Below, piece by piece: positions 1,899 to 15,847 of a stretch of 64,000 nt of DNA (positions within the stretch are counted from its first letter, which is position 1; each line of letters begins with the position of its first letter). The stretch comes from Glaciecola amylolytica. GTDB lineage: Bacteria; Bacteroidota; Bacteroidia; Flavobacteriales_D; Crocinitomicaceae. The DNA is taken from NCBI GenBank assembly GCA_003856375.1, contig CP034120.1, positions 2,046,001-2,110,000 on the forward strand. The letters run 5' to 3'. The translations under genes and the position numbers were made by a program. The notes beneath the pieces were generated by a model. That model did not search any database, was not told where the DNA came from, and was given only the letters and a program-made list of their open reading frames with translations.

Positions 1899-3368
1899 AT
1901 GAACTACACAAAAAGAGACCGCTTTATTGCTCCGATCCTTGAATGGGCAAAAGCAAACAAGGAAGCAGAAGTACTTGAATTAGGTTTATTAAAATCAGGT
2001 AAATCTGCTTTAAAAGGTGTTGAAGCACCCGAGAATAAATTTGTTATTCCCGATGAATTCAACGGAAAAGACTACATCAGTATGCTGCTACACGTAGATG
2101 CAGAAATTGAACACGGATTGATGCTGCAGTATTTGTATGCTGCTTACAGCATTGGAAATCCGGATTTATCTGAAAAACACCAGCAAACTGTTTCCACCTG
2201 GAAAAACATCATTACCGGGATTGCAAAAGAGGAAATGGGACATTTTATTTCCGTGCAGAATGTATTGAAAGTGATTGGAGCTCCATTAAACTTCGGGCGC
2301 GAAAGTTATCCCTGGGACATTCCTTTCTATCCTTTTCCTTTTGCACTGGAAAAATTCTCATTGAATTCGCTGGCAAAATATGTGTATGCAGAAGCTCCTC
2401 AAAGCTGGCTGGATTCGGATGATCCCATTGCAAAGGAAGTCATCACCCTGGTTAAAGCTTCCACTTCCGATCCGCACACCGTTGGAGCATTGTTTAAGAT
2501 TTTGCTCCAGTTAATTCAAGATCCGAATGTGATTTCCGATGAAACATTTATGGCCAATACTTATCCGTTTCAGGCGAAATTCGATGAATGGGGACGTGGT
2601 TATGTTGGCGGGCAACGAGGTTCTGCCGGAGCGGGTGTTTACGGAAAAAGTCCGGATGTGCTGGTTGCTCCTTTGATGTGCCGCGACGATGCTTACAATG
2701 CGCTGAATGAAATTGCAGAGCAAGGTGAAGGAGAAGATGTGGATACAAAAACACCTTCCCATTTCGAGCGCTTTCTTTTCATTTTCAAGGAATACAAACT
2801 CTTACTGAAAGAAACAAAAGGAACTTTCGATCCTTCGCGGAACGTTGCAACCAATCCGTATATTTCTTCTGAAGCGGATGCCGATACCAGTTCTTCGTCT
2901 AACGAACCCGCATTGGAACTTGAAGCCGACGCTATTACCAGACCTGAAACGATTCTTTGGTGTAAACTTGCTGATATCCGGTACCGTTTGCTGCTCAATT
3001 TCTTAAATCACAGCTTTGCATTGGACGATGGCCTGAACCAATCCGGAGCTTACACACCGCGGGGAATGGTGATCAATTCCACCTTCGGAGAAATGTACAA
3101 CCTGCGCAGCCTGTCTACGATCGTTGTACAAAAACCAATCTCAGAAGGAAGTACCATCATGGCCGGACCGCCGTTTACTGCTCCTTACACATTCGATCTT
3201 CCGATTGGAGAATTAAACCGGTGGAATGCACACAAAGATCTGATTATTGCTTCCGGAAAGATCATTGAAGATCTGAAAAAATACAAGAAGCAAGCAGACC
3301 TTCAATTCCTGAATGCTCTTCAGGAAACGGATCAGCAATTACTTCAAAGTATCGAAAACCTTCAGTAA
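1899..3368 (+). CDS. VioB-type ferritin-like domain protein
   Basis: 489 residues. The region around residues 60-135 matches the ferritin-like domain of VioB, the iminophenylpyruvate dimer synthase of violacein synthesis. A helix with E71 followed by LMLQYLYAAYSIG is followed by AKEEMGHFISVQNVL, giving an EExxH pair (E111/E112, H115). These residues would be ligands of a metal site. Only the ferritin-like part of VioB is represented: the family's large N-terminal region is absent and the 998-residue length is halved. There is no signal peptide, so a cytoplasmic location is likely. It is the first gene of a same-strand run, with 36 bases to the LodA-like gene, so it probably works on or with that protein. 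Its reaction is unknown. It could be a catalytic partner, an oxygenase acting on the LodA-like protein or its substrate, or a structural subunit. Confidence 0.75.
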   Translation: MNYTKRDRFIAPILEWAKANKEAEVLELGLLKSGKSALKGVEAPENKFVIPDEFNGKDYISMLLHVDAEIEHGLMLQYLYAAYSIGNPDLSEKHQQTVSTWKNIITGIAKEEMGHFISVQNVLKVIGAPLNFGRESYPWDIPFYPFPFALEKFSLNSLAKYVYAEAPQSWLDSDDPIAKEVITLVKASTSDPHTVGALFKILLQLIQDPNVISDETFMANTYPFQAKFDEWGRGYVGGQRGSAGAGVYGKSPDVLVAPLMCRDDAYNALNEIAEQGEGEDVDTKTPSHFERFLFIFKEYKLLLKETKGTFDPSRNVATNPYISSEADADTSSSSNEPALELEADAITRPETILWCKLADIRYRLLLNFLNHSFALDDGLNQSGAYTPRGMVINSTFGEMYNLRSLSTIVVQKPISEGSTIMAGPPFTAPYTFDLPIGELNRWNAHKDLIIASGKIIEDLKKYKKQADLQFLNALQETDQQLLQSIENLQ

Positions 3369-3404
3369 AAAGCATTCGATTGATACTGACTTAAAATATT
3401 CAAG

Positions 3405-5648
3405 ATGAAAATTATAGAACTTCGCATATTACCTCCTATCGCAATCGGCCGCTTAGGAGAATCAGACAAACCTTTGGCTGCATACGATTTGGAATTGTCT
3501 AAAAACAAGCCCTTGGATTTCAGAACGATTGTTCCTGAAAAGACCTTTGAGGTAGATCCCAAAACAGGAATCATCAAGGCCATCAAACCAACGAAAGTGA
3601 TTTTTAAAAAGGCTAAATCCATTGATGACAAGTCAGGAAAAGTTCTTCCTGTGGCGCCTTTCCTGGAAGTATTTGCACTTACGGATAAAAGTCCGGATTT
3701 GTTGGTTCCTTTAACGCTGTCATTGCTGAAAGAAGCCGGATTAGGTCTGGAAGATCTCCGTTGGGATGTGGAGGTTGGAAACATGAAAATGTTTCGCAGA
3801 ACCAGTGATGAAAAAGACAAAATCATCGCGAAATTATCCGGGATCAAATCACACGAAGCGATGCCTTTACTGGGGGAATGTGACAATTTCGTTCAGGGAA
3901 AAAAACTGCCATTGGGAACCATCCAGTTTATTCAGCCTAATGCTGAATTTCCTGAGATTCGTCTGCGTTACACTCCAGGAGGAGGTCGTGTTTACGGAAC
4001 CAGTCTGGAAAGAGAAACAGCTCCGGGAACGTATGAAAAAGATCCGGTAATCGATTCAAAAGATAAAATCATCTACAAAAAAGAAGGAAAATGGTTAGGT
4101 TACAAAGAATCTGCTACTTCTCTTCCCTATTATACCAATCCGGCTCAGCTTTTCGCGGGCTACAACCTGGAAGACGGTACACGCGTGAGTTGGGGATATA
4201 TCGACGATGAATGTGACGGACATGTGAAAGTGAGCCTGAAATTATCGAAAACAAAAACACTCACGGCGAAAGCACATATCAGCGCAGGCCCGCCCGCATA
4301 TGCTCCAGACACATTACCCATCAGAGTAGTTTCCGATGAGTTGGAACAGATTTTTCTGGGCACTGATATTGACGGAACAGTGGATATTGAAGAAGCGGAA
4401 GACATTATCCGCAGAGCTTTTGAAACGATCCGGATCATGAATACAGCCATCATGAACGGAAACAGCTACGAAGGCAAATTCAATACTGCCAGTACGATGG
4501 TTCGGCAAAACACGAATGATTTTGGCCGTTTGTATGAACCAATCATGGCTACATCACTGGTAGACAATTATGCATTGCGTGTATTGCATGAACGCGTGTT
4601 CAACGGATTGAGCGCAGGTGCTTCTCCCTGGTTTGCCGATTTATTGCGCAGACCGGATGAAATCGGAGACCTTTCAAGCAGCGGATTGCGTAAAATGCCT
4701 GCTTTGATGCGTGGTGCCGATGGCCGCTCATTGACCTTTACTTACAGACAAATCAATAAGATTATCAAAGCGGCTGCTCAGATCATGTTCGCGAAAACCA
4801 ATCCGAACAACCTGCCGGAATCGTACGGATCTCCAATGATTCCGTCCAACAAAACAGCGCAGCTTCACTACCGTGCTGAAGGAAACCCGTATTCGACTGT
4901 TGCCCGCTCTGCGATCTCCAATTGTTTTCCGGGTCTGGAATTCGATTTCAGAAACCTGTGGAGAAGAGCTTTCAAAGGCTTGGTACTACTCGAAAGCAAC
5001 AATTATGTGGTCGACGCAACGGAACCTGCATTGAAAAAACTGATCGGACACCGGTTGGTTGCCATTGACGGAAAAGCCACCATGGTTTCTACAAGCGGGC
5101 CTGTTTTTCCGGATGGAGACAGTCAACCCTTGATTACTACTGCCAATCCGAACGGAGTTTCATTTATGGAATGGTCCAATTCGATGGTAGAAGTGCTTCA
5201 AAAGCAAGGACAGGAAGTTGTTTGTCATTTTACGGCAGATAAATCCCCGACTGAGGTCATGGTTGATCTGAAAGAATTAAAAGACAAAAAGAAATACATC
5301 GCCGTTAAGCTGAAAGTCAACGAACTTTTCGACGGGAACAGCGCAGCATTTTCCGACGAAATCCTGAAACCGGGTGAATTAACACAAAGTTTGTGTGCTC
5401 CCTGGCAAAACGATTACCGCGAATGCTCTTGCTATTACTGGGCTGCAAGCAGACCCGATTATGTAAACGTGGTTCCGGATGAAAATGGCTTGAGTACAGG
5501 TGATAACTGGATGGCCAAGAAACGAACCGGAAAATACATTCCCGATAACTGGTCCGACAGCCGAATGCAAACATATGACGATTTGTTTGAAAACTGGCAG
5601 GGAGAACTCAGTTTCATTATCAAAGGAAATGACGCACTCGAGAGCTAA
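3405..5648 (+). CDS. LodA/GoxA-like cysteine-tryptophylquinone oxidase
   Basis: 747 residues, close to LodA (L-lysine epsilon-oxidase) in length. The N-terminus (ELRILPPIAIGRLGES) fits the LodA N-terminal pattern. The C-terminal part has the family landmarks in order: a cysteine before FPGLEFD (C507), then PGELT, PWQNDY with W667, and WAASRPDYVNV. In LodA/GoxA a Cys and a Trp at the corresponding places form the CTQ cofactor that oxidises primary amines of amino acids, releasing H2O2 and ammonia. Here the two residues are 160 apart, wider than I recall for LodA, because of an insertion of roughly 95 residues. Additional cysteines cluster just after the Trp (ECSCYYW). There is no signal peptide; LodA-type proteins also lack a classical one. 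The next two genes are plausible cofactor-maturation enzymes. Substrate cannot be read from sequence. Family assignment is from remembered motifs and was not searched. Confidence 0.75.
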   Translation: MKIIELRILPPIAIGRLGESDKPLAAYDLELSKNKPLDFRTIVPEKTFEVDPKTGIIKAIKPTKVIFKKAKSIDDKSGKVLPVAPFLEVFALTDKSPDLLVPLTLSLLKEAGLGLEDLRWDVEVGNMKMFRRTSDEKDKIIAKLSGIKSHEAMPLLGECDNFVQGKKLPLGTIQFIQPNAEFPEIRLRYTPGGGRVYGTSLERETAPGTYEKDPVIDSKDKIIYKKEGKWLGYKESATSLPYYTNPAQLFAGYNLEDGTRVSWGYIDDECDGHVKVSLKLSKTKTLTAKAHISAGPPAYAPDTLPIRVVSDELEQIFLGTDIDGTVDIEEAEDIIRRAFETIRIMNTAIMNGNSYEGKFNTASTMVRQNTNDFGRLYEPIMATSLVDNYALRVLHERVFNGLSAGASPWFADLLRRPDEIGDLSSSGLRKMPALMRGADGRSLTFTYRQINKIIKAAAQIMFAKTNPNNLPESYGSPMIPSNKTAQLHYRAEGNPYSTVARSAISNCFPGLEFDFRNLWRRAFKGLVLLESNNYVVDATEPALKKLIGHRLVAIDGKATMVSTSGPVFPDGDSQPLITTANPNGVSFMEWSNSMVEVLQKQGQEVVCHFTADKSPTEVMVDLKELKDKKKYIAVKLKVNELFDGNSAAFSDEILKPGELTQSLCAPWQNDYRECSCYYWAASRPDYVNVVPDENGLSTGDNWMAKKRTGKYIPDNWSDSRMQTYDDLFENWQGELSFIIKGNDALES

Positions 5649-5675
5649 AAATTGACATCAACTAATGAAAACAGA

Positions 5676-7055
5676 ATGAATCTTTCTAAAGAGTCAACAA
5701 ATTATAATACAGATCAAATAGCGGGAATACTGGCCGGTGTTGTGATGCAGCAATCCAAACCGGTTTCGCCGGTGGCACATCTCATCAAGAGTCTCCATAC
5801 GACCCAATTGTTTCTTCCAAACGGAAGCCGCTTGTATTCCATCAATCAGGCTGTTGAAGAGCGCATTTCAAACCTCATCCACACACACGATGAAGCCGCT
5901 TTGCAGGAAGAATTGATTTTGCTTGGACTGGACGCTCCTACATATATCGACGATCAGCCACTGGAAAGCCCACCGCTTTATGCGCTGTCGCTTGCCATTG
6001 CGCAAAAATGCAATATGGGCTGCACATATTGTTATGCCAATCAGGGAGATTTTGGAGGACCATCGAAGAACATGTCTATCGAGTCGGCATTCAAAGCCAT
6101 TGATTTGCTGCTGAAAGATTGTCCGGAAGACGGAACCGTGCAATTGACTTTTTTAGGAGGCGAGCCTCTGATCAATCGAAAAGCAATCCGGGAGTCGGTT
6201 TCATATGCCGAAATGAAAGCGCGGGAAAAGAATATAAAAGTCCGCTATTCGATCACAACCAACGGTACTTTGCTCACGGAAGAAGACGCTGTTTTTTTCG
6301 AAACGTATGGATTTGCTGTTACCATTAGTTTAGATGGATTGAAGGAAGCCCATGATGCTCAGCGCCCTATGAAAGGTGGTAAAGGAAGTTTTGACCGCGT
6401 GATGCAGAATATTCGCCCGTTGTTAGCGATTCAGAAAAACATGCAGGTTTCTGCACGGGTAACTGTAACACCTGAAAACACCAATCTCGCCGAAGCACTG
6501 GACGAATTTATCCGGATGGGATTCCACAGCGTTGGTTTCTCTCCGCTGCTTCGTTCAAGTAACGGACAAGGAGAAATGACTCCCGAAAGTTTGGCGGTCA
6601 TGCTTGAAAATATGATTGCCTGCGGATTGAATTTTGAAAAAAATGTATTGGCCGGAAATCGATACCCTTTCTTAAACATGGTAAACGCCATGAAAGAAAT
6701 TTCAAAAGGAACGCATCGGCCCTATCCTTGCGGCGCAGGTGCAGGATACATGGGAGTTTCCGCCGACGAAGAATTATTTGCCTGTCACCGCTTCGTAAAT
6801 GAAGAAGCCGGCTATATGGGCGACTTAAATACAGGAATTAATCCTGAGAAGCAAAACAACTGGCTTTCAACACGCCATGTTCACAAACAAGATCCGTGTT
6901 CTCAGTGTTGGGCGCGTTACTTATGCAGCGGCGGCTGTCATCACGAAGTCATAGAAAAAGGACGACCGGCTTGTGATTATATCCGCTCGTGGCTGACCTA
7001 CTCGATTCAGGCTCATGAACGTTTGGCTCGCTTAAAACCCGACTGGTTTAATTGA
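5676..7055 (+). CDS. QhpD-like radical SAM/SPASM maturase
   Basis: 459 residues from ATG 5676; an in-frame TTG at 5652 would add eight. The radical SAM cluster motif is CNMGCTYC (C112, C116, C119). GGEP follows, and the C-terminal SPASM cysteines fit the family spacing: C352, C370, C408-x2-C411-x5-C417-x3-C421 and C433, for two auxiliary Fe-S clusters. The C-terminal phrases RPYPCGAGAGYMGVSAD, CHRFVNEEAG and CWARYLCSGGCHHEV are those I associate with the maturase of quinohemoprotein amine dehydrogenase. That enzyme installs thioether cross-links between Cys and Asp/Glu in the small catalytic subunit. No such subunit is encoded here; the adjacent LodA-like protein is the obvious substrate candidate. 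The N-terminal ~100 residues precede the barrel and may bind the substrate. The gap to the upstream stop is 27 bases, and the end lies 5 bases before the next ATG. Confidence 0.85.
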   Translation: MNLSKESTNYNTDQIAGILAGVVMQQSKPVSPVAHLIKSLHTTQLFLPNGSRLYSINQAVEERISNLIHTHDEAALQEELILLGLDAPTYIDDQPLESPPLYALSLAIAQKCNMGCTYCYANQGDFGGPSKNMSIESAFKAIDLLLKDCPEDGTVQLTFLGGEPLINRKAIRESVSYAEMKAREKNIKVRYSITTNGTLLTEEDAVFFETYGFAVTISLDGLKEAHDAQRPMKGGKGSFDRVMQNIRPLLAIQKNMQVSARVTVTPENTNLAEALDEFIRMGFHSVGFSPLLRSSNGQGEMTPESLAVMLENMIACGLNFEKNVLAGNRYPFLNMVNAMKEISKGTHRPYPCGAGAGYMGVSADEELFACHRFVNEEAGYMGDLNTGINPEKQNNWLSTRHVHKQDPCSQCWARYLCSGGCHHEVIEKGRPACDYIRSWLTYSIQAHERLARLKPDWFN

Positions 7056-7060
7056 CAGAC

Positions 7061-8536
7061 ATGAAATTGTTTCCTGAAAAATTGCATGTATGCATTCTCG
7101 GAGCCGGGCCTGCAGGATTGTGTGCAGCTTTGCGCTTACTGGAAATGGGACATACGGTCGGAATGATCGAATCGGAAATATTTCCCCGACAGCAGATCGG
7201 GGAATCTCTTTCACCCACCGTCCGGAATATTTTCGCTTATCTGAATGCTGAACATTTACTGAACCACGAGGGATTTCTACACGATTTACCTTCCAACGTT
7301 ATTTGGGAAAATAAGGGAACTGTTCAGCAGCAGCTCAAAAACCGGCCGGAGAATATTGTCGTCGACAGAAGTATTCTTGATCAGGAATTATTGCAACTAG
7401 CTGTAAGCAGAGGATTACATCTCTTACAACCTGCAAAATTAAAGGAGTTTCACCGCACGGAAGAAGGCTGGAAACTGGAAGTTCTTTCGGAAGAGAAAAC
7501 GGTTTCGATCCAAACGCTTGTTTTACTGGATGCCCGCGGGCGAAAAGGAACACTGGCTCAGGAACGTTTATCCGTTTCACCGCCATCCGTTGCAATCTGG
7601 TCGCACATCAACGCGGATCTGATGCCGGAAGAAACATTTGTTGAAGCCATTCGCGAAGGCTGGTTCTGGGGAGCAAAAGTTCCGGGAAACCGCTATCGCA
7701 TCATGGCTTTTACGGATGGAAAAACCATCCGACAGCATAACGGGAGGTCTCTGTCGGAATTAGCTAAAAACACCCGTTTTTTCAGTTCAATTGCCAAGCA
7801 TTTGGAAACTTCTCCGTTAGAAACGTGTTCCGTGACTTCATTTGTAAATCAGAATCCCTGGAACGAGCAATTGATCAAGTTGGGGGAAGCCGCTTTCACA
7901 CTCGACCCGTTGTCTTCAAACGGTGTTGAAAAAGCCATGCGCTTTTCACTGCAAGCTGCCATTGCCGTAAACACGTTCTTAAAAAATCCGGAATCATCAA
8001 ATGCGAAGGATTTCTATGAGGAAAAACTCATCGAATCTGTCAGTAATCATGGTCATTGGACAGCTTCATTTTATCAGACAGCATGGCCGTATCAGGACAA
8101 TGCCCCGTTTTGGAAAAGTAAATCGGAGCTTCATCTTTCAATTCCTGCAAATTCTTCTGAATTCCTGCAAAAATTACAGCAAGGATTCAATTCACCTCCG
8201 CCCTTTCCTTCTCATAAAGCGCCTGTTTCGATTCCTGTAGATTTGGTATTGAATCAAATCCGACACAGTAAAATCAGTCCTTCACCGTTGATTACTTTCA
8301 AAGAAGTATTTGCGGTCAATCACGATGTTGTTGAAGTCATTCAGGCTGTTTGCCACCCGGAATTGGAGCGGCCTGTCGGATACCTGGAACAGCTGCATTT
8401 GCCATTATTGCTGCAGGAAATCAATGGGCAAACGATTGAAACAGCAATCGAACTGGTGAACAGACAATTCCCCCTTGAAAAAGCAAAAAAGATCATTTTT
8501 CATTTGTGGCAAAACCAGCTGATTGTTCTCAATTGA
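7061..8536 (+). CDS. FAD-dependent monooxygenase, LodB/QhpG/tryptophan-halogenase type
   Basis: 491 residues from ATG 7061. An overlapping TTG at 7052 is in frame but would overlap the radical SAM gene. The dinucleotide motif GAGPAG (residues 14-19) is followed by ESEIFPRQQIGESLSP, the second FAD-contacting stretch typical of flavin monooxygenases of the tryptophan-halogenase/geranylgeranyl-reductase group. Later DPLSSNGVEKAM resembles the GD-type FAD site. LodB is required to make CTQ in LodA, and QhpG hydroxylates the Trp in QHNDH, so a role in Trp oxygenation of the neighbouring oxidase is a strong contextual inference. The last ~85 residues extend beyond the flavoprotein core. They include LLLQEINGQTIETAIELV and end KAKKIIFHLWQNQLIVLN, resembling a PqqD/RRE-like winged-helix peptide-binding module. 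A terminator follows directly. Confidence 0.8.
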   Translation: MKLFPEKLHVCILGAGPAGLCAALRLLEMGHTVGMIESEIFPRQQIGESLSPTVRNIFAYLNAEHLLNHEGFLHDLPSNVIWENKGTVQQQLKNRPENIVVDRSILDQELLQLAVSRGLHLLQPAKLKEFHRTEEGWKLEVLSEEKTVSIQTLVLLDARGRKGTLAQERLSVSPPSVAIWSHINADLMPEETFVEAIREGWFWGAKVPGNRYRIMAFTDGKTIRQHNGRSLSELAKNTRFFSSIAKHLETSPLETCSVTSFVNQNPWNEQLIKLGEAAFTLDPLSSNGVEKAMRFSLQAAIAVNTFLKNPESSNAKDFYEEKLIESVSNHGHWTASFYQTAWPYQDNAPFWKSKSELHLSIPANSSEFLQKLQQGFNSPPPFPSHKAPVSIPVDLVLNQIRHSKISPSPLITFKEVFAVNHDVVEVIQAVCHPELERPVGYLEQLHLPLLLQEINGQTIETAIELVNRQFPLEKAKKIIFHLWQNQLIVLN

Positions 8537-8561: not shown

Positions 8562-8593
8562 AAAAGCCCCGACGGATAAATGTCGGGGCTTTT
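8562..8593. terminator. Bidirectional terminator between convergent genes
   Basis: A perfect 12-bp stem (AAAAGCCCCGAC, 8562-8573, with GTCGGGGCTTTT, 8582-8593) and an 8-base loop, with A and T runs on either side. It sits between the FAD monooxygenase (+) and the T9SS repeat protein (-), so it can end both transcripts. Confidence 0.9.
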
Positions 8594-8616: not shown

Positions 8617-11600
8617 CTAGTTCTTCACAAATTTCACATTCGCTCCGTATGTGGATTTGATGAAGTAAACTCCAGGGGTTAGTGAACTTACTTGAATGAT
8701 ATTATTTCCTGATTTCAGATCCGCTTGCTGAACGGTTTTTCCTGTCATGTCGATGATCGCAATTTCTACTGCTTCATTTACTTCGATGAACAACTGATCG
8801 CTTGCCGGATTCGGATAGACATTCCATCCGTTTTGTGTCAATGCTTCTAAACCTACAGTGGATATTATCACACAGCTTGAAGTTGCAGAACATCCGTTTT
8901 GAGTTACAACTACTGCATACGAACCGTTTTGAGTCGGTGTGAACGATGCATTTGTTGCTCCGTTGATCGGTTGATTGTCCGCACAATTGATCCAATGATA
9001 CGTTGCTCCTGTTGCCGATGCCGTGATGGTATTTCCCTGAACGGTTGTTCCTGCATTCACAGAATTAACAACAACAGTCATGGTTGCACTGGTAACACAT
9101 TGTCCGGAAGTTGCCGTAAATGTATACGTTGTAGTTGCTGTGTTATTTACCGCCGGACTCCACGTACCGCTGATTCCATTCGTAGAAGTGGTCGGTAAGG
9201 TGAATGATCCACCCGAACAAATCGCAGGAATCTGGTTAAATGTCGGTGTAACACTGTTGTTCACCGTTACGGTCATTGTTGTTGTCAAACCACATTGTCC
9301 TGCATTCGGTGTAAAAGTATACGTTGTCGTTGCAGTGTTGTTCGCCGCCGGACTCCATGTACCACTGATTCCATTGGTGGAAGTTGTCGGCAAGGTGAAC
9401 GATTCTCCGGAGCAAATTGCCGGAATTTGAGTAAACACCGGTGTTACAGAAGCTGTATTTACAGTGACGGTCATCGTAGTTGTTACTGCACACTGTCCTG
9501 CATTTGGCGTGAATGTATACGTTGTTGTGGCCATATTGTTGATTGCCGGACTCCATGTACCGTTGATTCCATTCGTGGAAGTGGCCGACAAGGTGAATGA
9601 TCCGCCTGAACAAATCGCAGGAACCTGATTAAACGTTGGCGTTGTAGATGTACTGTTTACCGTTACTGTCATGGTAGTTGCAGAAGCACATTGTCCCACA
9701 TTCGGCGTAAAGGTATACGTTGTTGTTGCAGTGTTGTTTACCGCCGGACTCCACGACCCATTGATTCCATTCGTGGAAGTAGTTGGTAATGTGAACGATC
9801 CTCCGGAACAAATTGCAGAAACCTGATTGAATGTCGGTGTTGTGGCGTTATTTACCGTTACCGTCATTGCAGCGTTCAAAACACACTGTCCTTGTCCTGA
9901 ATTCGGTGTGAAAGTATACGTCGTTGTTGCCGTGTTGTTCACTGCCGGACTCCATGTACCGTTGATTCCGTTGTTGGAAGTGGTCGGCAAGGTGATTGAT
10001 CCGCCTGAACAAATTGCAGGAATCTGTGTGAAAGCTGGTGTTACGGAAGCAGAAACAGTCATTGTAATTGCATTACTTGTAACACTCGTAGGTGAAGCAC
10101 AAGCCGCGTTGCTTACCATCACACAGGTAACAATACTTCCGTTTGTCAACGTGGTAGTTGTGTAGGACGAACTGTTTGTTCCAACATTTCCTCCGTTTAC
10201 TTTCCACTGATAAGACGGTGAGGCACCTCCGTGTGTTGGTGTTGCATTAAAGACAATGCTTTCTCCCTGACAAATGGTTGTTGCTGAAGCATTGATTGCA
10301 ACTGACGGAGTACATGCAGATGGCGGTGTTCCGATCAAACAGATCGTGAAAGTGCCTGTATTAAGTCCCGAAACAGTATTCAAAACACGGACGTAATATG
10401 TCTGACCAATTGTTAATGTAGTCATTGTCGCAGATTCGCTGAGTCCTGAACCGTTCTGATTGCGGCAAAGGATTTCAGCTCCGTTACAGCTTCCTTCAAG
10501 GACCTGGAAACCGTGATTCAATCCGGTAACAGCGCTTAGCTGGATGCTCATGTTTGCAGCGGTTGCAGTAAACTTATACCAAACATCCTGGGAAATAGAA
10601 GGTGCACAAGAAGGTGTATTTCCATTCAGCATTGCTCCGCTGAAAGTTCCTGAAATAGTGTTACAGCTGTTGTTTGGTGTCAATTCGATTGCATTCGCAC
10701 ACAAATCATTCACCGGAGTCGGATATTTGCGGATACAAATCCCGAAAGTCAAGGCATTTAATGAAGCCGACGTATTGAATACGCGTACATAATACACCTG
10801 TCCCGGGATGAAATTGTAATTGAAATAGTTCTCACTTAAACCAGAAGAATTACTATTTACACATTGCACAACAGGGCCGTTGCAGCTTCCCTGAATAATC
10901 TCAAAACCGTGGTTCAAATTTGAAACAGCCTCCAAACCAATGCTCATAGTGGAATCTGTAGCCGTAAACTTGTACCAAACATCCTGAGATGCGGAAGATG
11001 CACAAGAAGGAGTTCCTCCGTTCATCATCGCTCCGCTGAACGTTCCGTAAGTATAATTACATGTTGTTCCGGGAGTTAAAGTCGTTGCATTTACACAAAG
11101 ATCATTTACAGGAACCGGATAATTCTGAATACAAATTCCGAAAGTCAAGGTACTCAATGATGCCGACGCATTGAACACACGTACGTAATAAGTTTGTCCC
11201 GGAATGAAATTGTAATAGAAATACCCTTCACTTAAACCGAAACTGTTGCTGTTCACACATTGCAGAACAGGCCCGTTGCAGCTTCCCTGAATAACTTCAA
11301 AACCATGGTTCAGTGATGCTTCTGCTGAAAGCGAAATACGCATCGTGGAATCTGTTGCAATAAACTTATACCAAACATCCTGAGATGCGGAAGATGCACA
11401 AGAAGGAACTCCACCGTTCATCATTGCTCCGCTGAACGTTCCAATCGTATAATTACATGCTGTTCCGGGTGTTAAAGTTGTTGCATTCACACAGCGATCG
11501 TTTGCAGGAACCGAATAATTCTGAATACAAATTCCGAAAGTCAAAATACTTAATGATGCTGTTGTATTGAATACACGCACATAATAGGTTTGTCCCGGAA

Positions 11601-13143
11601 TGAAATCGTAATAGAAGTATCCTTCACTTAAGCCGAAGCTATTGTTGTTCACACATTGCATCACAGGGCCGTTGCAACTTCCCTGAATAACTTCAAAACC
11701 ATGGTTCAGTGATGTTTCTGCTGAAAGCGAAATGCGCATCGTGGAATCTGTTGCAATAAACTTGTACCAAACATCCTGAGAAGCGGAAGGTGCACAAGAA
11801 GGAACTCCACCATTCATCATTGCTCCGCTGAAGGTACCAATCGTATAATTACAAGCTGTTCCGGGTGTTAAAGTTGTTGCGTTTACACAACGGTCGTTTG
11901 CCGGAACGGGGTTATTCTGAATACAAATTCCGAAAGTCAAAATACTCAATGAACCGGAAGTATTGAATACACGCACATAATAGGTTTGTCCCGGAATGAA
12001 ATTGTAATAGAAATACCCTTCACTCACGCCGAAACTGTTGTTGTTCACACATTGCATCACAGGGCCGTTACAGCTTCCCTCGATAATCTCAAAACCATGG
12101 TTCAGTGATGTTTCTGCTGAAAGCGAAATGCGCATCGTGGAATCTGTTGCAATAAACTTGTACCAAACATCCTGAGAAGCGGAAGGTGCGCAAGAAGGAA
12201 CTCCGCCATTCATCATCGCTCCGCTGAAAGTTCCAATCGTATAATTACAAGCTGTTCCGGGTGTTAAAGTCGTTGCATTTACACAGCGATCGTTTGCCGG
12301 AACGGGATTATTCTGAATACAAATTCCGAAAGTCAAAATACTCAACGAACCGGAAACATTGAATACACGTACGTAATAAGTTTGTCCCGGAATGAAATTG
12401 TAATAGAAATACCCTTCACTCACGCCGAAACTGTTGTTGTTCACACATTGCATCACAGGGCCGTTGCAGCTTCCCTGAATAATCTCAAAACCATGGTTCA
12501 ATGATGTTTCTGCTGAAAGCGAAATGCGCATCGTGGAATCTGTTGCAACAAACTTGTACCAAACATCCTGAGAAGCGGAAGGTGCGCAAGAAGGAACTCC
12601 ACCGTTCATCATCGCTCCGCTGAAAGTTCCTGTAGTGTAATTACACGCCGCACCAGGTGTTAAAGTTGTTGCGTTTACGCAGCGGTCGTTTGCAGGAACA
12701 GGATTATTCTGAATACAGATTCCGAAAGTCAAAGTGCTCGGTGAACCGGAAACATTGAATACGCGTACGTAATACAATTGCCCGGGAATGAAATTGTAAT
12801 TGAAATAACCTTCACTCACACCGGAACTGTTGTTGTTCACGCATTGAAGCACTGTTCCGCCACATCCTCCCTGAACAATTTCAAATCCGTGATTCAAGCT
12901 GGATTGAGCCGACAACGAAATACGCATCGTGGAATCCGTTGCGGTAAACTTGTACCAAAGATCCTGAGAAGCTGACGGAGCACAAGCCGGAGCTGTGGTA
13001 CTGATCGTCATTCCGCTGAATGAACCCGTTGTATTGACACAGCTTGCACCTGGTGTCAATGTAACCGCATTCGCACATTCATCCTGGCCGTAGGTGGCAA
13101 AGACCGATGTGATAAAAGCAAATAAGATAAAAATTTTTGTCAT
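8617..13143 (-). CDS. Giant T9SS-secreted cell-surface repeat protein
   Basis: 1508 residues from the ATG at 13143, chosen because it starts a signal peptide (MTKIFILFAFITSVFATYGQ); the frame is open 65 codons further upstream. Seven tandem ~134-residue modules follow, each with ND-C-NA-TLTPG, SQDVWYKF, NHGFEI-QGSCNGP and YYVRVFN; each carries several cysteines. Then comes one Ig-like module (ICQGESIVFNATP) and five ~65-residue modules (PAICSGGSFTLPTTSTNGI). The end is a type A T9SS sorting domain (NVYPNPASDQLFIEV to VKFVKN). The protein is expected to be exported, cleaved and anchored outside the cell as an adhesin or stalk. Its function beyond that is not readable. The modules are nearly identical at the DNA level. 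The gene follows the hybrid kinase at 13241-15847 with a 97-base gap on the same strand and could be its target or be co-transcribed with it. Confidence 0.85.
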   Translation of the reverse strand: MTKIFILFAFITSVFATYGQDECANAVTLTPGASCVNTTGSFSGMTISTTAPACAPSASQDLWYKFTATDSTMRISLSAQSSLNHGFEIVQGGCGGTVLQCVNNNSSGVSEGYFNYNFIPGQLYYVRVFNVSGSPSTLTFGICIQNNPVPANDRCVNATTLTPGAACNYTTGTFSGAMMNGGVPSCAPSASQDVWYKFVATDSTMRISLSAETSLNHGFEIIQGSCNGPVMQCVNNNSFGVSEGYFYYNFIPGQTYYVRVFNVSGSLSILTFGICIQNNPVPANDRCVNATTLTPGTACNYTIGTFSGAMMNGGVPSCAPSASQDVWYKFIATDSTMRISLSAETSLNHGFEIIEGSCNGPVMQCVNNNSFGVSEGYFYYNFIPGQTYYVRVFNTSGSLSILTFGICIQNNPVPANDRCVNATTLTPGTACNYTIGTFSGAMMNGGVPSCAPSASQDVWYKFIATDSTMRISLSAETSLNHGFEVIQGSCNGPVMQCVNNNSFGLSEGYFYYDFIPGQTYYVRVFNTTASLSILTFGICIQNYSVPANDRCVNATTLTPGTACNYTIGTFSGAMMNGGVPSCASSASQDVWYKFIATDSTMRISLSAEASLNHGFEVIQGSCNGPVLQCVNSNSFGLSEGYFYYNFIPGQTYYVRVFNASASLSTLTFGICIQNYPVPVNDLCVNATTLTPGTTCNYTYGTFSGAMMNGGTPSCASSASQDVWYKFTATDSTMSIGLEAVSNLNHGFEIIQGSCNGPVVQCVNSNSSGLSENYFNYNFIPGQVYYVRVFNTSASLNALTFGICIRKYPTPVNDLCANAIELTPNNSCNTISGTFSGAMLNGNTPSCAPSISQDVWYKFTATAANMSIQLSAVTGLNHGFQVLEGSCNGAEILCRNQNGSGLSESATMTTLTIGQTYYVRVLNTVSGLNTGTFTICLIGTPPSACTPSVAINASATTICQGESIVFNATPTHGGASPSYQWKVNGGNVGTNSSSYTTTTLTNGSIVTCVMVSNAACASPTSVTSNAITMTVSASVTPAFTQIPAICSGGSITLPTTSNNGINGTWSPAVNNTATTTYTFTPNSGQGQCVLNAAMTVTVNNATTPTFNQVSAICSGGSFTLPTTSTNGINGSWSPAVNNTATTTYTFTPNVGQCASATTMTVTVNSTSTTPTFNQVPAICSGGSFTLSATSTNGINGTWSPAINNMATTTYTFTPNAGQCAVTTTMTVTVNTASVTPVFTQIPAICSGESFTLPTTSTNGISGTWSPAANNTATTTYTFTPNAGQCGLTTTMTVTVNNSVTPTFNQIPAICSGGSFTLPTTSTNGISGTWSPAVNNTATTTYTFTATSGQCVTSATMTVVVNSVNAGTTVQGNTITASATGATYHWINCADNQPINGATNASFTPTQNGSYAVVVTQNGCSATSSCVIISTVGLEALTQNGWNVYPNPASDQLFIEVNEAVEIAIIDMTGKTVQQADLKSGNNIIQVSSLTPGVYFIKSTYGANVKFVKN
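9080..10075 (-). repeat. Five tandem ~200-bp intragenic repeats
   Basis: Five copies of an Ig-like module (~65 codons each) inside the T9SS protein, recognisable by recurring CCGGACTCCA and GGAACAAAT/GAGCAAAT blocks on the + strand. Similarity is high enough for slippage or recombination. Confidence 0.8.
10330..13090 (-). repeat. Seven tandem ~400-bp intragenic repeats
   Basis: Seven copies of the ~134-codon cysteine-containing module, one every ~400 bp. The middle copies (about 11100-12700) share long near-identical runs such as TTTGTCCCGGAATGAAAT and GATCGTTTGC. The outer copies are more diverged, as expected from internal duplication. Confidence 0.85.
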
Positions 13144-13240
13144 ATCAATGTTTATTACGCAGCAAAGGTAATCTGCATGTTTATTTGTTCCGTGTAATGA
13201 TGTTGTAGATCTGTATACTATTGTTGCATCCTCAGTAAAT

Positions 13241-15847
13241 TCAAGACTTTCCACTGAATTGACTCGGGCTTTTTCCAAAATACTCGGTGAACGATTTCGT
13301 GAAATAAGACTGGCTGCTGAAACCACATTTGTATGCAATTTCGGTGATATTTCCCTCTTGATTCAACAACAAATCCTTCGCTTTTTCCAGACGGATCATC
13401 CGGATAAAATTGGTGGTGGAAAATCCCGTTAATGCTGCCAGTTTCCGGTGAAGCTGACTCCGGCTGACAGCCATATCGTCCGAAAGTTCATTCACGGAAT
13501 ATTCCGAATCATCGATGTGTTTGACAATGCAATCAATAACCTTGTTGACATAAGCATTCTGGCTTTTGATCCGTTCTTCAAATGTTTTTTCCGAATCAAT
13601 GGAATCTTTGTAAGCATCCTTGTTTCGCTGAACGGTTGTAAACAAATTCCGGATGGTCAGTTTCAATTCTTCGGGAGAAAATGGCTTGGAAACGTAGGCA
13701 TCTGCCCCATGCTGTAAGCCTTGCAAACGGCTTTCCAACGATGCTTTCGCGGAAAATAACACAACCGGCAGGTGGTTTGTCAATTCATTCGACCGGATTT
13801 CCTGCAGCAATTCAATTCCGTCTTTCTCAGGCATCATAATGTCTGAAAGAACGATATCCGGTAAATTCTCACGGATTAAATCAATCGCCTGCTGACCGTT
13901 TTTAGCGTGCATGATGTGAAAACTCTCTTTCAAAACAGAAATACTGAAAGCAGCCGTGTCCGGATCATCTTCCGCAAGCAAAAGAGTCGGAATATCGTCA
14001 TTCGGCACATTGGAATCCGCAACATCGCTTACTTCCTGCACCGGAATAGACACTACAAAAGTTGTCCCCGAAGCATTACTTTGAAGATTGATCGTTCCGC
14101 GGCTCAAATCCACCAATTCTTTCACCAAAGACAAACCTATTCCCGTACCCGTTACGTCAGAAGTATGTTTCCCTCTGAAAAAACGGCGGAACACTTTTTT
14201 CTGATCCTTTTCAGGAATTCCCGGGCCTGTGTCGCTTACCCGAATAAGTAATTGATTGTTCTCAACCTGAGAAACGACCTGAATTTCAGCATTCGCAGGG
14301 CAATATTTCACCGCATTTCCAACCAGGTTCGAAAGAATCTTTTCCAAGCCGTTGGAAGGAAATGAATAGTAATTCTCTGAACCAATCTTTTGATGAATGA
14401 TTTGAAGATTCCTTGATTTTGCCTCATTCGCGAAGCTGTTGAGGATGTTTTCGATAAACTCATCTATATCTCCGTTGGTAAAATGAAGCTGAAAACTTCC
14501 CTTCCCGAGTTTCGATGCATCCAGAAGTTCATTCACCAGATCAATCAGTTTTTTGGAATTCCGTTCCATCAATTCCAGTTCATTCTGATAAGTAGAAGCG
14601 GAATTTTGTTTCATCACCTGAATCGGACCGTCAATAAGTGTGAGCGGAGTTCTGATTTCATGAAAAATATTTTCAAAGAGCCGCAGTTTTTCCTGTTCAA
14701 ACTCCTGCGTGATCTTTCTCCGTTGAAACAGCAGATAGGTAATCGATCCTGCCACTAAAAACACCGAAATTGCGATAAACAAAAGGATATTCCGCTGGTT
14801 TTTGTTTTGTTGGATTTCCTGTTTGTGCAACTGAATTTCCTTTTCCTTTTTTTCACTTTGGTATTTGATTTCCAGCTCTTCAATTTCTTTTTGCTTGGCT
14901 ACAGAGAAAATTCGCTGACGCGCTTCGGTTTCCAGTTTTTTATAGTGATAAGCATTTTTAAAATCGTGAATGGAATCATACAAGGCACTGATCCTCTCGA
15001 ACAAAGCTGGTTTAAACTGATCTTCCGGCCGTCGTTCGTTCGTTGCAATTGCATTTTTCATATACTCAATTGCTTTCGGATAATTCTTTAAACCAAAATA
15101 ATAATCCCCCAGATTTTGGTATGTACTCGTCATCGTGAGATAATCCTTGTTTTTTGAAGAAAACTCCAAACTTTTATTGTAGTAATAAATACAGGAATCG
15201 GGATGAACCGTTTGATAGGCTGCCCCCAGTGAATTGTAGACAGCAGCTACATACTCGTATTGCTTTTTCTTCAGAAGTGTTTTCTCGGCTTCCTTCAAGG
15301 TTTTTATCGACTCATCGAAAGATTGATTCATGATTTGCAAACCCGCAAGATTCGCCATGATCAGCGCATAATACCTGTAATCATTCGCTTCTTTCTTCGC
15401 CTGAGCAGCCAGTTTCATGTATTTTTCCGCCTTGCCGAGATTGCTCAGATAAAAGTAGCAAACCCCTATTCCATTGTAAATGGTTCCTGCCAATGATTTT
15501 TCGTCATGCTTTTCAGCCAGTTCAAGCCCTTTCAAATAGGAAGAAATCGCTTTCTTCAGCTTGTTCTGTCTTTGATAAGCTTCTCCGATTACCGAATACG
15601 AGCGAATCACCAGCACATGATTGTTCGTTTCCTTTCCGATTGCTTTGGCTGCATTTCCGTAATAAAGGCTGGAATCCGGGTTTTCCGCCAAATGATAATT
15701 GGCTATTTCGATGTTCAACTCTCCCTTTCGCTGCTCATTAGACTTTTTCATTAAGGAACGTAGGGAATCTGCAGGATTCTGGCTCCACAACTGTTGTGGT
15801 AAAAAAGCGGAGAAGATCAGAAGGAAGGAAAAAACAAAATTTGCCAT
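13241..15847 (-). CDS. Hybrid two-component sensor (TPR, kinase, receiver, AraC)
   Basis: 868 residues from ATG 15847, which begins the signal peptide MANFVFSFLLIFSAFLPQQLWSQ; the upstream open extension is unlikely. Order of domains: TPR repeats (~30-330); a transmembrane helix near 345-365 (ILLFIAISVFLVAGSITYLLF) after a charged coiled coil; a HisKA domain with FHEIRTP (~residue 394); an HATPase with GTGIGLSLVKEL; a receiver (~620-735) with LAEDDPD and LSDIMMP, the phospho-acceptor being the Asp in SDI, and the conserved Lys in SKPF; and an AraC-type HTH (~760-866: AVSRSQLHRKL and AYKCGFSSQSYFTKSF). A single protein therefore senses, phosphorylates and binds DNA. Unlike SusR-type hybrid sensors it uses TPRs rather than a propeller. 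The T9SS repeat-protein gene lies immediately downstream. Confidence 0.93.
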   Translation of the reverse strand: MANFVFSFLLIFSAFLPQQLWSQNPADSLRSLMKKSNEQRKGELNIEIANYHLAENPDSSLYYGNAAKAIGKETNNHVLVIRSYSVIGEAYQRQNKLKKAISSYLKGLELAEKHDEKSLAGTIYNGIGVCYFYLSNLGKAEKYMKLAAQAKKEANDYRYYALIMANLAGLQIMNQSFDESIKTLKEAEKTLLKKKQYEYVAAVYNSLGAAYQTVHPDSCIYYYNKSLEFSSKNKDYLTMTSTYQNLGDYYFGLKNYPKAIEYMKNAIATNERRPEDQFKPALFERISALYDSIHDFKNAYHYKKLETEARQRIFSVAKQKEIEELEIKYQSEKKEKEIQLHKQEIQQNKNQRNILLFIAISVFLVAGSITYLLFQRRKITQEFEQEKLRLFENIFHEIRTPLTLIDGPIQVMKQNSASTYQNELELMERNSKKLIDLVNELLDASKLGKGSFQLHFTNGDIDEFIENILNSFANEAKSRNLQIIHQKIGSENYYSFPSNGLEKILSNLVGNAVKYCPANAEIQVVSQVENNQLLIRVSDTGPGIPEKDQKKVFRRFFRGKHTSDVTGTGIGLSLVKELVDLSRGTINLQSNASGTTFVVSIPVQEVSDVADSNVPNDDIPTLLLAEDDPDTAAFSISVLKESFHIMHAKNGQQAIDLIRENLPDIVLSDIMMPEKDGIELLQEIRSNELTNHLPVVLFSAKASLESRLQGLQHGADAYVSKPFSPEELKLTIRNLFTTVQRNKDAYKDSIDSEKTFEERIKSQNAYVNKVIDCIVKHIDDSEYSVNELSDDMAVSRSQLHRKLAALTGFSTTNFIRMIRLEKAKDLLLNQEGNITEIAYKCGFSSQSYFTKSFTEYFGKSPSQFSGKS

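Follow-up and report, generated by a model that had tools for sequence, protein, structure and literature searches.

Two kinds of enzyme that carry the cofactor cysteine tryptophylquinone (CTQ) bear on the gene cluster described here. LodA/GoxA-type oxidases are encoded with a flavoprotein, LodB or GoxB. In quinohemoprotein amine dehydrogenase (QHNDH), the CTQ lies in the small gamma subunit QhpC, in which thioether bonds join Cys7 to Glu16, Cys27 to Asp33 and Cys41 to Asp49, and Cys37 and Trp43 form the CTQ (PMC8172795). The Cys41-Asp49 bond is also given in PMC7876137, and the numbering is counted after a 28-residue leader (PMC7876137). Cys-Asp/Glu thioethers are formed by the radical S-adenosylmethionine (SAM) enzyme QhpD (PMC8172795) and likewise by PapB (PMC9413430). 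Here we describe an apparently undescribed, conserved cluster of four genes at positions 1899-8536 of a 64,000-nucleotide stretch, hereafter the window, of the 4.6 Mb single-contig genome of Glaciecola amylolytica (CP034120.1). It may link these two CTQ enzyme families, and it brings a maturation kit previously known from one enzyme to the side of a different one.

All four open reading frames (ORFs) lie on the + strand, and their coordinates give the gaps of 36, 27 and 5 bases that a sequence-only reading of the locus had stated. They encode, in order, a ferritin-like partner protein of 489 amino acids (aa) with a PF12902 domain (1899-3368), a 747-aa LodA/GoxA-like CTQ protein in which an N part and a C part are fused (3405-5648), a QhpD-like radical SAM/SPASM enzyme of 459 aa from its ATG, predicted to be a thioether-forming maturase (5676-7055), and a QhpG/LodB-type flavoprotein of 491 aa from its ATG, the predicted Trp hydroxylase that would complete the CTQ (7061-8536). 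We consider it probable that this is a LodA/GoxA-type oxidase whose C part is matured like QhpC, with QhpD-like staples and a flavoprotein-completed CTQ, and whose products are acted on by the ferritin-like partner.

To ask where else these genes occur together, we scanned an 84,980-species genome collection with an alignment of C parts as query and confirmed 210 loci. The best 80 of these were returned, and all genome-locus counts below refer to them, with a gene counted if it lay on the same strand within 6 kb. The order ferritin-like protein, LodA-like N part, C part, radical SAM enzyme, flavoprotein was found in 76 of the 80. Both LodA-like parts were present in every locus, the radical SAM and flavoprotein genes in 79 each and the ferritin-like gene in 77. 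The exceptions to the order were L038, without a ferritin-like match, L072, without a flavoprotein match and with its radical SAM gene about 9 kb off, and two short contigs without a ferritin-like match (L082 and L091). The linkage of the radical SAM gene to the 747-aa protein, on which the sequence-only reading leaned, is thus kept elsewhere, within 6 kb in 79 loci and at about 9 kb in the eightieth. A BLAST search of plasmids with the 747-aa protein matched 20 records, 13 of them over at least 80% of the query, and a relative of the radical SAM enzyme stood beside the relative of the 747-aa protein in all 20, one copy being truncated (16 records were read as loci and the other four judged by match coordinates). 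With the gene order kept in 76/80 genome loci and the radical SAM relative in place in 20/20 plasmid records, the recurrence exceeds chance.

By the submitters' titles, the 80 loci span seven phyla: Bacteroidota (38), Pseudomonadota (29), Myxococcota (5), Actinomycetota (3), Acidobacteriota (2), Planctomycetota (2) and Verrucomicrobiota (1). In 43 loci one gene encodes both the N and the C part, and in 37 each part has its own gene, with the fused form in 37/38 Bacteroidota and the split form in 27/29 Pseudomonadota. They are also separate in all 15 plasmid loci with a C part, a count that omits one decayed copy without it (L012). Closer to home, the cluster is sporadic, since the window's own genome was the only one with it among 100 genomes of its family and among 392 sampled from its phylum. 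A profile search covering 300 genomes from a single order and 195 from a single family returned two known centres and three weak, short matches, and two scans of viral contigs found no relative of the cluster.

The 747-aa protein groups with LodA/GoxA by predicted fold and by profile comparison. Its AlphaFold2 (AF2) model (predicted local distance difference test, pLDDT, 83.7; predicted template modelling score, pTM, 0.88) was searched against the Protein Data Bank (PDB) with Foldseek, and all 50 matches at E<=0.001 were GoxA or LodA, the best at 3e-12. Profile-profile (HH) comparison with 16 classical LodA proteins gave the N part a probability of 98.9%; the C part reached 96.1%, and its CTQ site aligned in register. 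The alignments supplied to AF2, of 60 and 52 rows, were hand-chosen for diversity, and split relatives were entered as separate N and C rows. In common with LodA/GoxA and their LodB/GoxB partners, the new family has the fold, N-terminal similarity, PGxE and PWQxD...C...W in register, and an adjacent flavoprotein of the same superfamily. It differs from them in having two or three extra Cys-Asp/Glu pairs and QhpD-like and ferritin-like genes, in scoring under all the family cut-offs, in a Cys-Trp spacing of 5, and in being split at many loci.

We aligned 96 C parts, 80 from genome loci, 15 from plasmids and the window's own. Cys664, Asp670, Cys674, Cys676, Trp679, Pro684 and Asp685 are invariant in 96/96; Cys507 is present in 89/96 and Glu512 in 95/96. 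LodA-type Cys and Trp landmarks had been picked out from the letters. Cys674 and Trp679 are the putative CTQ-forming pair (5424-5441): Cys674 aligns with LodA Cys516, and Asp670 with LodA Asp512 and GoxA Asp678. The distance from this Cys to the Trp is 5 residues in the 747-aa protein, compared with 13-37 in 19 classical proteins and 65 in LodA. Around the site lie three candidate thioether pairs, all on the + strand: Cys507...Glu512 (NCFPGLE, 4923-4940; QhpC Cys7-Glu16), Cys664...Asp670 (CAPWQND, 5394-5414; QhpC Cys27-Asp33) and Cys676...Asp685 (5430-5459; QhpC Cys41-Asp49).

The order of these residues, Cys507-x4-Glu512, Cys664-x5-Asp670, Cys674, Cys676, Trp679, Asp685, can be set against that of five QhpC proteins, Cys7-x8-Glu16, Cys27-x5-Asp33, Cys37, Cys41, Trp43, Asp49 (four come from Rhodobacterales, of which three have Ala for Pro48). 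Because the Cys-Asp/Glu order is the same, with the CTQ Cys-Trp gap one residue shorter, each QhpC thioether has a counterpart pair in the new family; what is present is the residues, and the bonds are predicted. The extra cross-links on the oxidase that the sequence-only reading had foreseen thereby gain residue-level support. With QHNDH the new family has in common a compact CTQ segment, Cys-Asp pairs in the same order and at nearly the same spacing, and QhpD-like and QhpG-like genes; it differs in carrying the CTQ part within a LodA-type body. Three Cys fall within 13 residues in the oxidase and a ferritin-like protein is encoded in the adjoining gene, so we considered whether the conserved Cys might bind a metal or an Fe-S cluster rather than form thioethers and CTQ. 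This seems barely plausible to us, as the Cys share their invariance (96/96) with Asp670, Asp685 and Trp679, and the order and near spacing of the oxidase's Cys and Asp follow QhpC.

Classical LodA-like proteins in the same host genomes served as a control. They were found in 14 of 30 genomes, at 20 places at E <1e-30, and 19 places were used, as stretches of 8.4-15.5 kb (L139, L141 and L144 being shorter, at 8.4-11 kb); L114, with a new cluster within about 5 kb, was omitted. A LodB-type flavoprotein gene was found in all 19 stretches and a QhpD-like radical SAM gene, at a threshold of 60 bits or more, in none of them; the one weak radical SAM match, of 33 bits in L147, was not counted. One control stretch, L153, also holds the ferritin-like, N and C parts of a new cluster whose radical SAM gene lies outside the stretch. 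Neither a Cys six residues before the Asp (the Cys664 position) nor a CxC was found in any of the 19 classical proteins. An overlapping set of 16 gave the same picture, and none of the 15 that have PGxE had a Cys two residues before it. A compact CTQ site, additional Cys-Asp/Glu pairs and a radical SAM gene therefore occur together, as all are missing from the classical stretches.

Among 81 families, the radical SAM enzyme scored best against QhpD (TIGR03906, 1.3e-93, 314 bits) and second best against PapB (NF047865, 275 bits). The CxxxCxxC motif is present in 95/95 sequences, and the seven C-terminal Cys, the full SPASM pattern noticed at the outset, are kept in 93 or 94 of 95 relatives. PapB and the ranthipeptide maturases are themselves thioether-forming (PMC9413430), and the PapB substrate is the precursor peptide of a ribosomally synthesized and post-translationally modified peptide. 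The radical SAM/SPASM families that match our enzyme include many peptide maturases, and classical lodA loci manage with a LodB-type gene and no QhpD-like enzyme. It could thus be argued that the radical SAM enzyme modifies some other target, be it a short peptide or the ferritin-like partner, and leaves maturation of the LodA-like protein to the flavoprotein by itself, as happens with LodA and LodB. We judge this improbable. The gaps of a few to a few dozen bases leave no space within the cluster for a gene encoding a precursor (the flanks were not searched for short ORFs), and the ferritin-like protein makes a poor radical SAM target because no column of its 85-row alignment exceeds 70% Cys. 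Furthermore, the extra Cys-Asp/Glu pairs occur in the family linked to the radical SAM gene and not at the classical LodA loci that are without one.

The flavoprotein, read beforehand as a flavin monooxygenase, passes the QhpG cut-off (NF049967, 270 bits against 240) and scores lower against LodB (139 bits) and GoxB (120 bits; cut-offs 400). In an outgroup-rooted tree of the first 380 residues, with 20 of 90 new-family flavoproteins, the new, QhpG and LodB proteins form separate clades with no firm branching order among them. A tree without the outgroup held 34 of the 90 and cannot show sister groups. The trees included 13 of 16 LodB-type flavoproteins, short ones being omitted.

Several observations weigh against a LodA-type oxidase matured like QhpC. 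The best radical SAM score lies under the QhpD cut-off of 453 bits, and the PapB score under its cut-off of 340. For the 747-aa protein, LodA_C (PF18417) matches at 1.5e-4 with 22 bits (cut-off 25), NF038172 at 20.5 of 600 bits and NF038173 at 21 of 750 bits. As no LodA-family profile reaches its curated cut-off, we regard the protein as a separate branch of LodA/GoxA; the profile searches place it outside LodA/GoxA in this weak sense only, and the fold search puts it with them. The TM-score of the model to GoxA is about 0.33, and the domains are accordingly poorly superposed on GoxA/LodA. The CTQ segment, residues 665-685, is modelled at pLDDT <50, which could mean that covalent staples are required to order this loop, or just that the prediction is poor here. 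Cys507 is missing from 7/96 C parts, one of them a truncated copy. The genome-scan patterns contain some of the Cys in question, biasing those loci toward them; the plasmid BLAST used no such filter, and the motif is present in 15/15 plasmid loci with a C part. Not every cluster has the ferritin-like gene: three genome loci lack it, and a profile found it in 6 of the 9 plasmid loci of the usual arrangement. Finally, the 28-residue leader of QhpC is required for binding QhpD (PMC7876137), which we also count on this side.

The ferritin-like protein matches PF12902 at 6.6e-29 (101.8 bits; gathering cut-off 22.3). Its AF2 model (pLDDT 81.8) has as best PDB match 3hl1, a ferritin-like protein of Caulobacter, at E 1.4e-4, followed by ferritin matches at E 0.4 or worse. 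E71, E111, E112, H115, E165, E277 and H288 are invariant in 52/52 aligned sequences, so that the EExxH motif first noted is joined by other likely metal-ligand positions; together, the seven would make up the ligand set expected of a diiron four-helix site. The label "VioB-type" proved too strong: the VioB model TIGR04492 matches over part of its length at 5e-12 with 44 bits, far from its cut-off of 1250, and what the two proteins share is confined to the PF12902 part.

Six plasmid loci (L010, L011 and L013-L016), from Streptomyces, Nostoc, Rhizobium and Microvirga, have an N part, a QhpD-like radical SAM enzyme and a CTQ part fused to a PF12902 domain. The fused domains score 35-46 bits, over the Pfam cut-off in 6/6. 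A flavoprotein of the same superfamily lies nearby in all six (E 7e-7 to 1e-25), and QhpG was the best NCBIfam model in the three tested. We argue from the fusion that either the oxidase itself or what it produces is the target of the ferritin-like partner. Other LodA-like proteins carry fused domains of the catalase-fold or iron redox kind, and a PF12902 neighbour of fungal lodA genes has already been reported (PMC4417212); for these reasons, handling of H2O2 or an imine is the likeliest role of the partner. The fungal loci bring together lodA-like, lodB-like and PF12902 genes as the new cluster does; they differ in that lodA and lodB have opposite orientations, and no radical SAM gene is mentioned in the excerpt (PMC4417212). 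We found no published description of the cluster among the titles and openings listed in literature searches, with most subscription journals outside their coverage.

VioB-type enzymes couple or oxidise an imine product. By analogy, the ferritin-like protein could do the same, and the cluster would then be a small natural-product pathway rather than a catabolic or antimicrobial oxidase. The PF12902 domain, the weak VioB match and the CTQ-ferritin fusions are compatible with this idea, which we hold to be possible though doubtful. The VioB score is far under its cut-off, each neighbour family is found in at most 17 of the 80 loci, and none of the few neighbours that were named is biosynthetic. 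A role in dealing with peroxide is favoured instead by the catalase-fold fusions of other LodA-like proteins (PMC4417212) and by genes for DyP-type peroxidases near two of the six fusion-type clusters (L010:6692-7957 and L014:15654-17086), a placement that fits peroxide production.

Taken together, we propose that the QhpD-like enzyme would install Cys-Asp/Glu thioether staples in the LodA-like C part, and that the flavoprotein would hydroxylate Trp679, which would then join Cys674 to give CTQ. A primary amine or amino acid would be oxidised through a Schiff base on CTQ and the electrons passed to O2, yielding an imine or aldehyde, ammonia and H2O2; the ferritin-like protein, with its apparently complete diiron-type ligand set, may act on the H2O2 or the imine. 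Since the maturation genes resemble those of QHNDH, the enzyme might instead be a dehydrogenase whose electrons go to the ferritin-like partner or to some other carrier rather than to O2. This we find unlikely, given that the body fold is that of LodA/GoxA and that no relative of the QhpA haem subunit or the QhpB propeller was found in a search of the window stretch and 97 further loci. BLASTP with QhpA, QhpB and QhpE from two qhp operons found relatives in those two operons only, among 100 stretches, and QhpF-like matches were distant ABC transporters in 4 loci. The QhpC model gave the cluster protein 14 of 50 bits, under the cut-off. A search for the QhpC family in 30 host genomes and 185 of one class gave no match; it also missed its controls and so says nothing on absence.

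At the residue just before PGxE, the 747-aa protein has Phe508, LodA has Cys448 and GoxA has His583, positions that we take to have a role in the active site. The title of PDB entry 6vl7 names an H583C mutant. Given Phe508, the substrate of an oxidase of the kind we propose is probably neither lysine nor glycine.

The resemblance to QhpC also bears on the origin of CTQ enzymes. A QhpC profile scored above 100/100 column shuffles against both a combined CTQ profile (HH 43%) and the classical profile (58%), and above 99/100 against the new family alone (1.5%). Although these HH probabilities are modest, this suggests shared ancestry of the LodA and QhpC CTQ sites, with the new family in between. 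The weak direct match of the new C part to QhpC alone counts against QhpC-like maturation of the oxidase. We see even chances that the CTQ sites of LodA and the QHNDH gamma subunit had one origin, of which the new family would be the surviving intermediate, combining a LodA body with maturases of the QhpD/QhpG type and a thioether-stapled CTQ segment like that of QhpC. On this view, QhpC would be a LodA catalytic core pared down to PGxE, P(W/M)xxD...C and W....P. A common origin would contradict the view, put forward in PMC7876137, that different proteins came by their tryptophylquinone cofactors through convergence. Should the proposed maturation be correct, this would be the first LodA-type oxidase known to us that depends on a radical SAM cross-linking enzyme, and the reach of QhpD-type chemistry, known from a subunit of about 9 kDa, would grow to include a protein of up to about 750 residues. 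The cluster makes testable both the homology of the two CTQ families and the need for staples when the CTQ Cys and Trp lie close, and its 210 confirmed genome loci include, among the best 80, oxidases that are naturally fused and naturally split.

The system is hidden in annotation, as the annotated plasmid records among those read label both LodA-like parts "hypothetical protein" and give the flavoprotein as "tryptophan 7-halogenase" or "FAD-dependent monooxygenase". A defence function was rejected; the PADLOC matches behind it reflect generic similarity to radical SAM (viperin) and FAD proteins.

A number of loci have features of their own. New clusters lie about 5-9 kb from a classical lodA-lodB pair at L018 (genome G490, contig C20), at L002 with L100, and at L153; the hosts are Flavobacterium branchiicola, Mycetohabitans endofungorum and Bradyrhizobium macuxiense. 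Immediately upstream of the ferritin-like gene in L021 (5386-6939) is a gene for a 517-aa protein that matches no Pfam family; relatives occur in 12/80 loci. The three plasmid loci of the usual arrangement in which the ferritin-like profile found no match are rhizobial variants. Two of them (L007:4742-7489 and L008:4863-7592) carry a divergent gene of 909-915 aa with BNR-like repeats and a PF12902 domain; no PF12902 gene was seen at the third, L009. Tyrosinase genes neighbour L008 and L009, and a multicopper oxidase gene L009, resembling a Bradyrhizobium lodA locus (PMC4417212). The decayed copy on an Azospirillum plasmid (L012:7998-11504) retains an N part and, ahead of an IS3 transposase, a truncated radical SAM gene; no C part was found there. 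The cluster genes of L084, from an assembly of Chitinophaga pinensis, are split into several ORFs, through assembly error or decay. Caulobacter vibrioides was the sole one of the 14 control genomes with a LodA_C match, and 3hl1 likewise comes from Caulobacter.

In the window, a terminator-like hairpin with a 12-pair stem (8562-8593), reported on the - strand and flanked by A and T runs, is the probable 3' end of the unit; a scan of the region for sigma-70 sites and terminators returned no more sites than shuffled sequence. Downstream, on the opposite strand and outside the cluster, an ORF at 8617-13338 encodes a repetitive 1573-aa protein. The GC content of the cluster is 44.5%, compared with 41.7% for the window.

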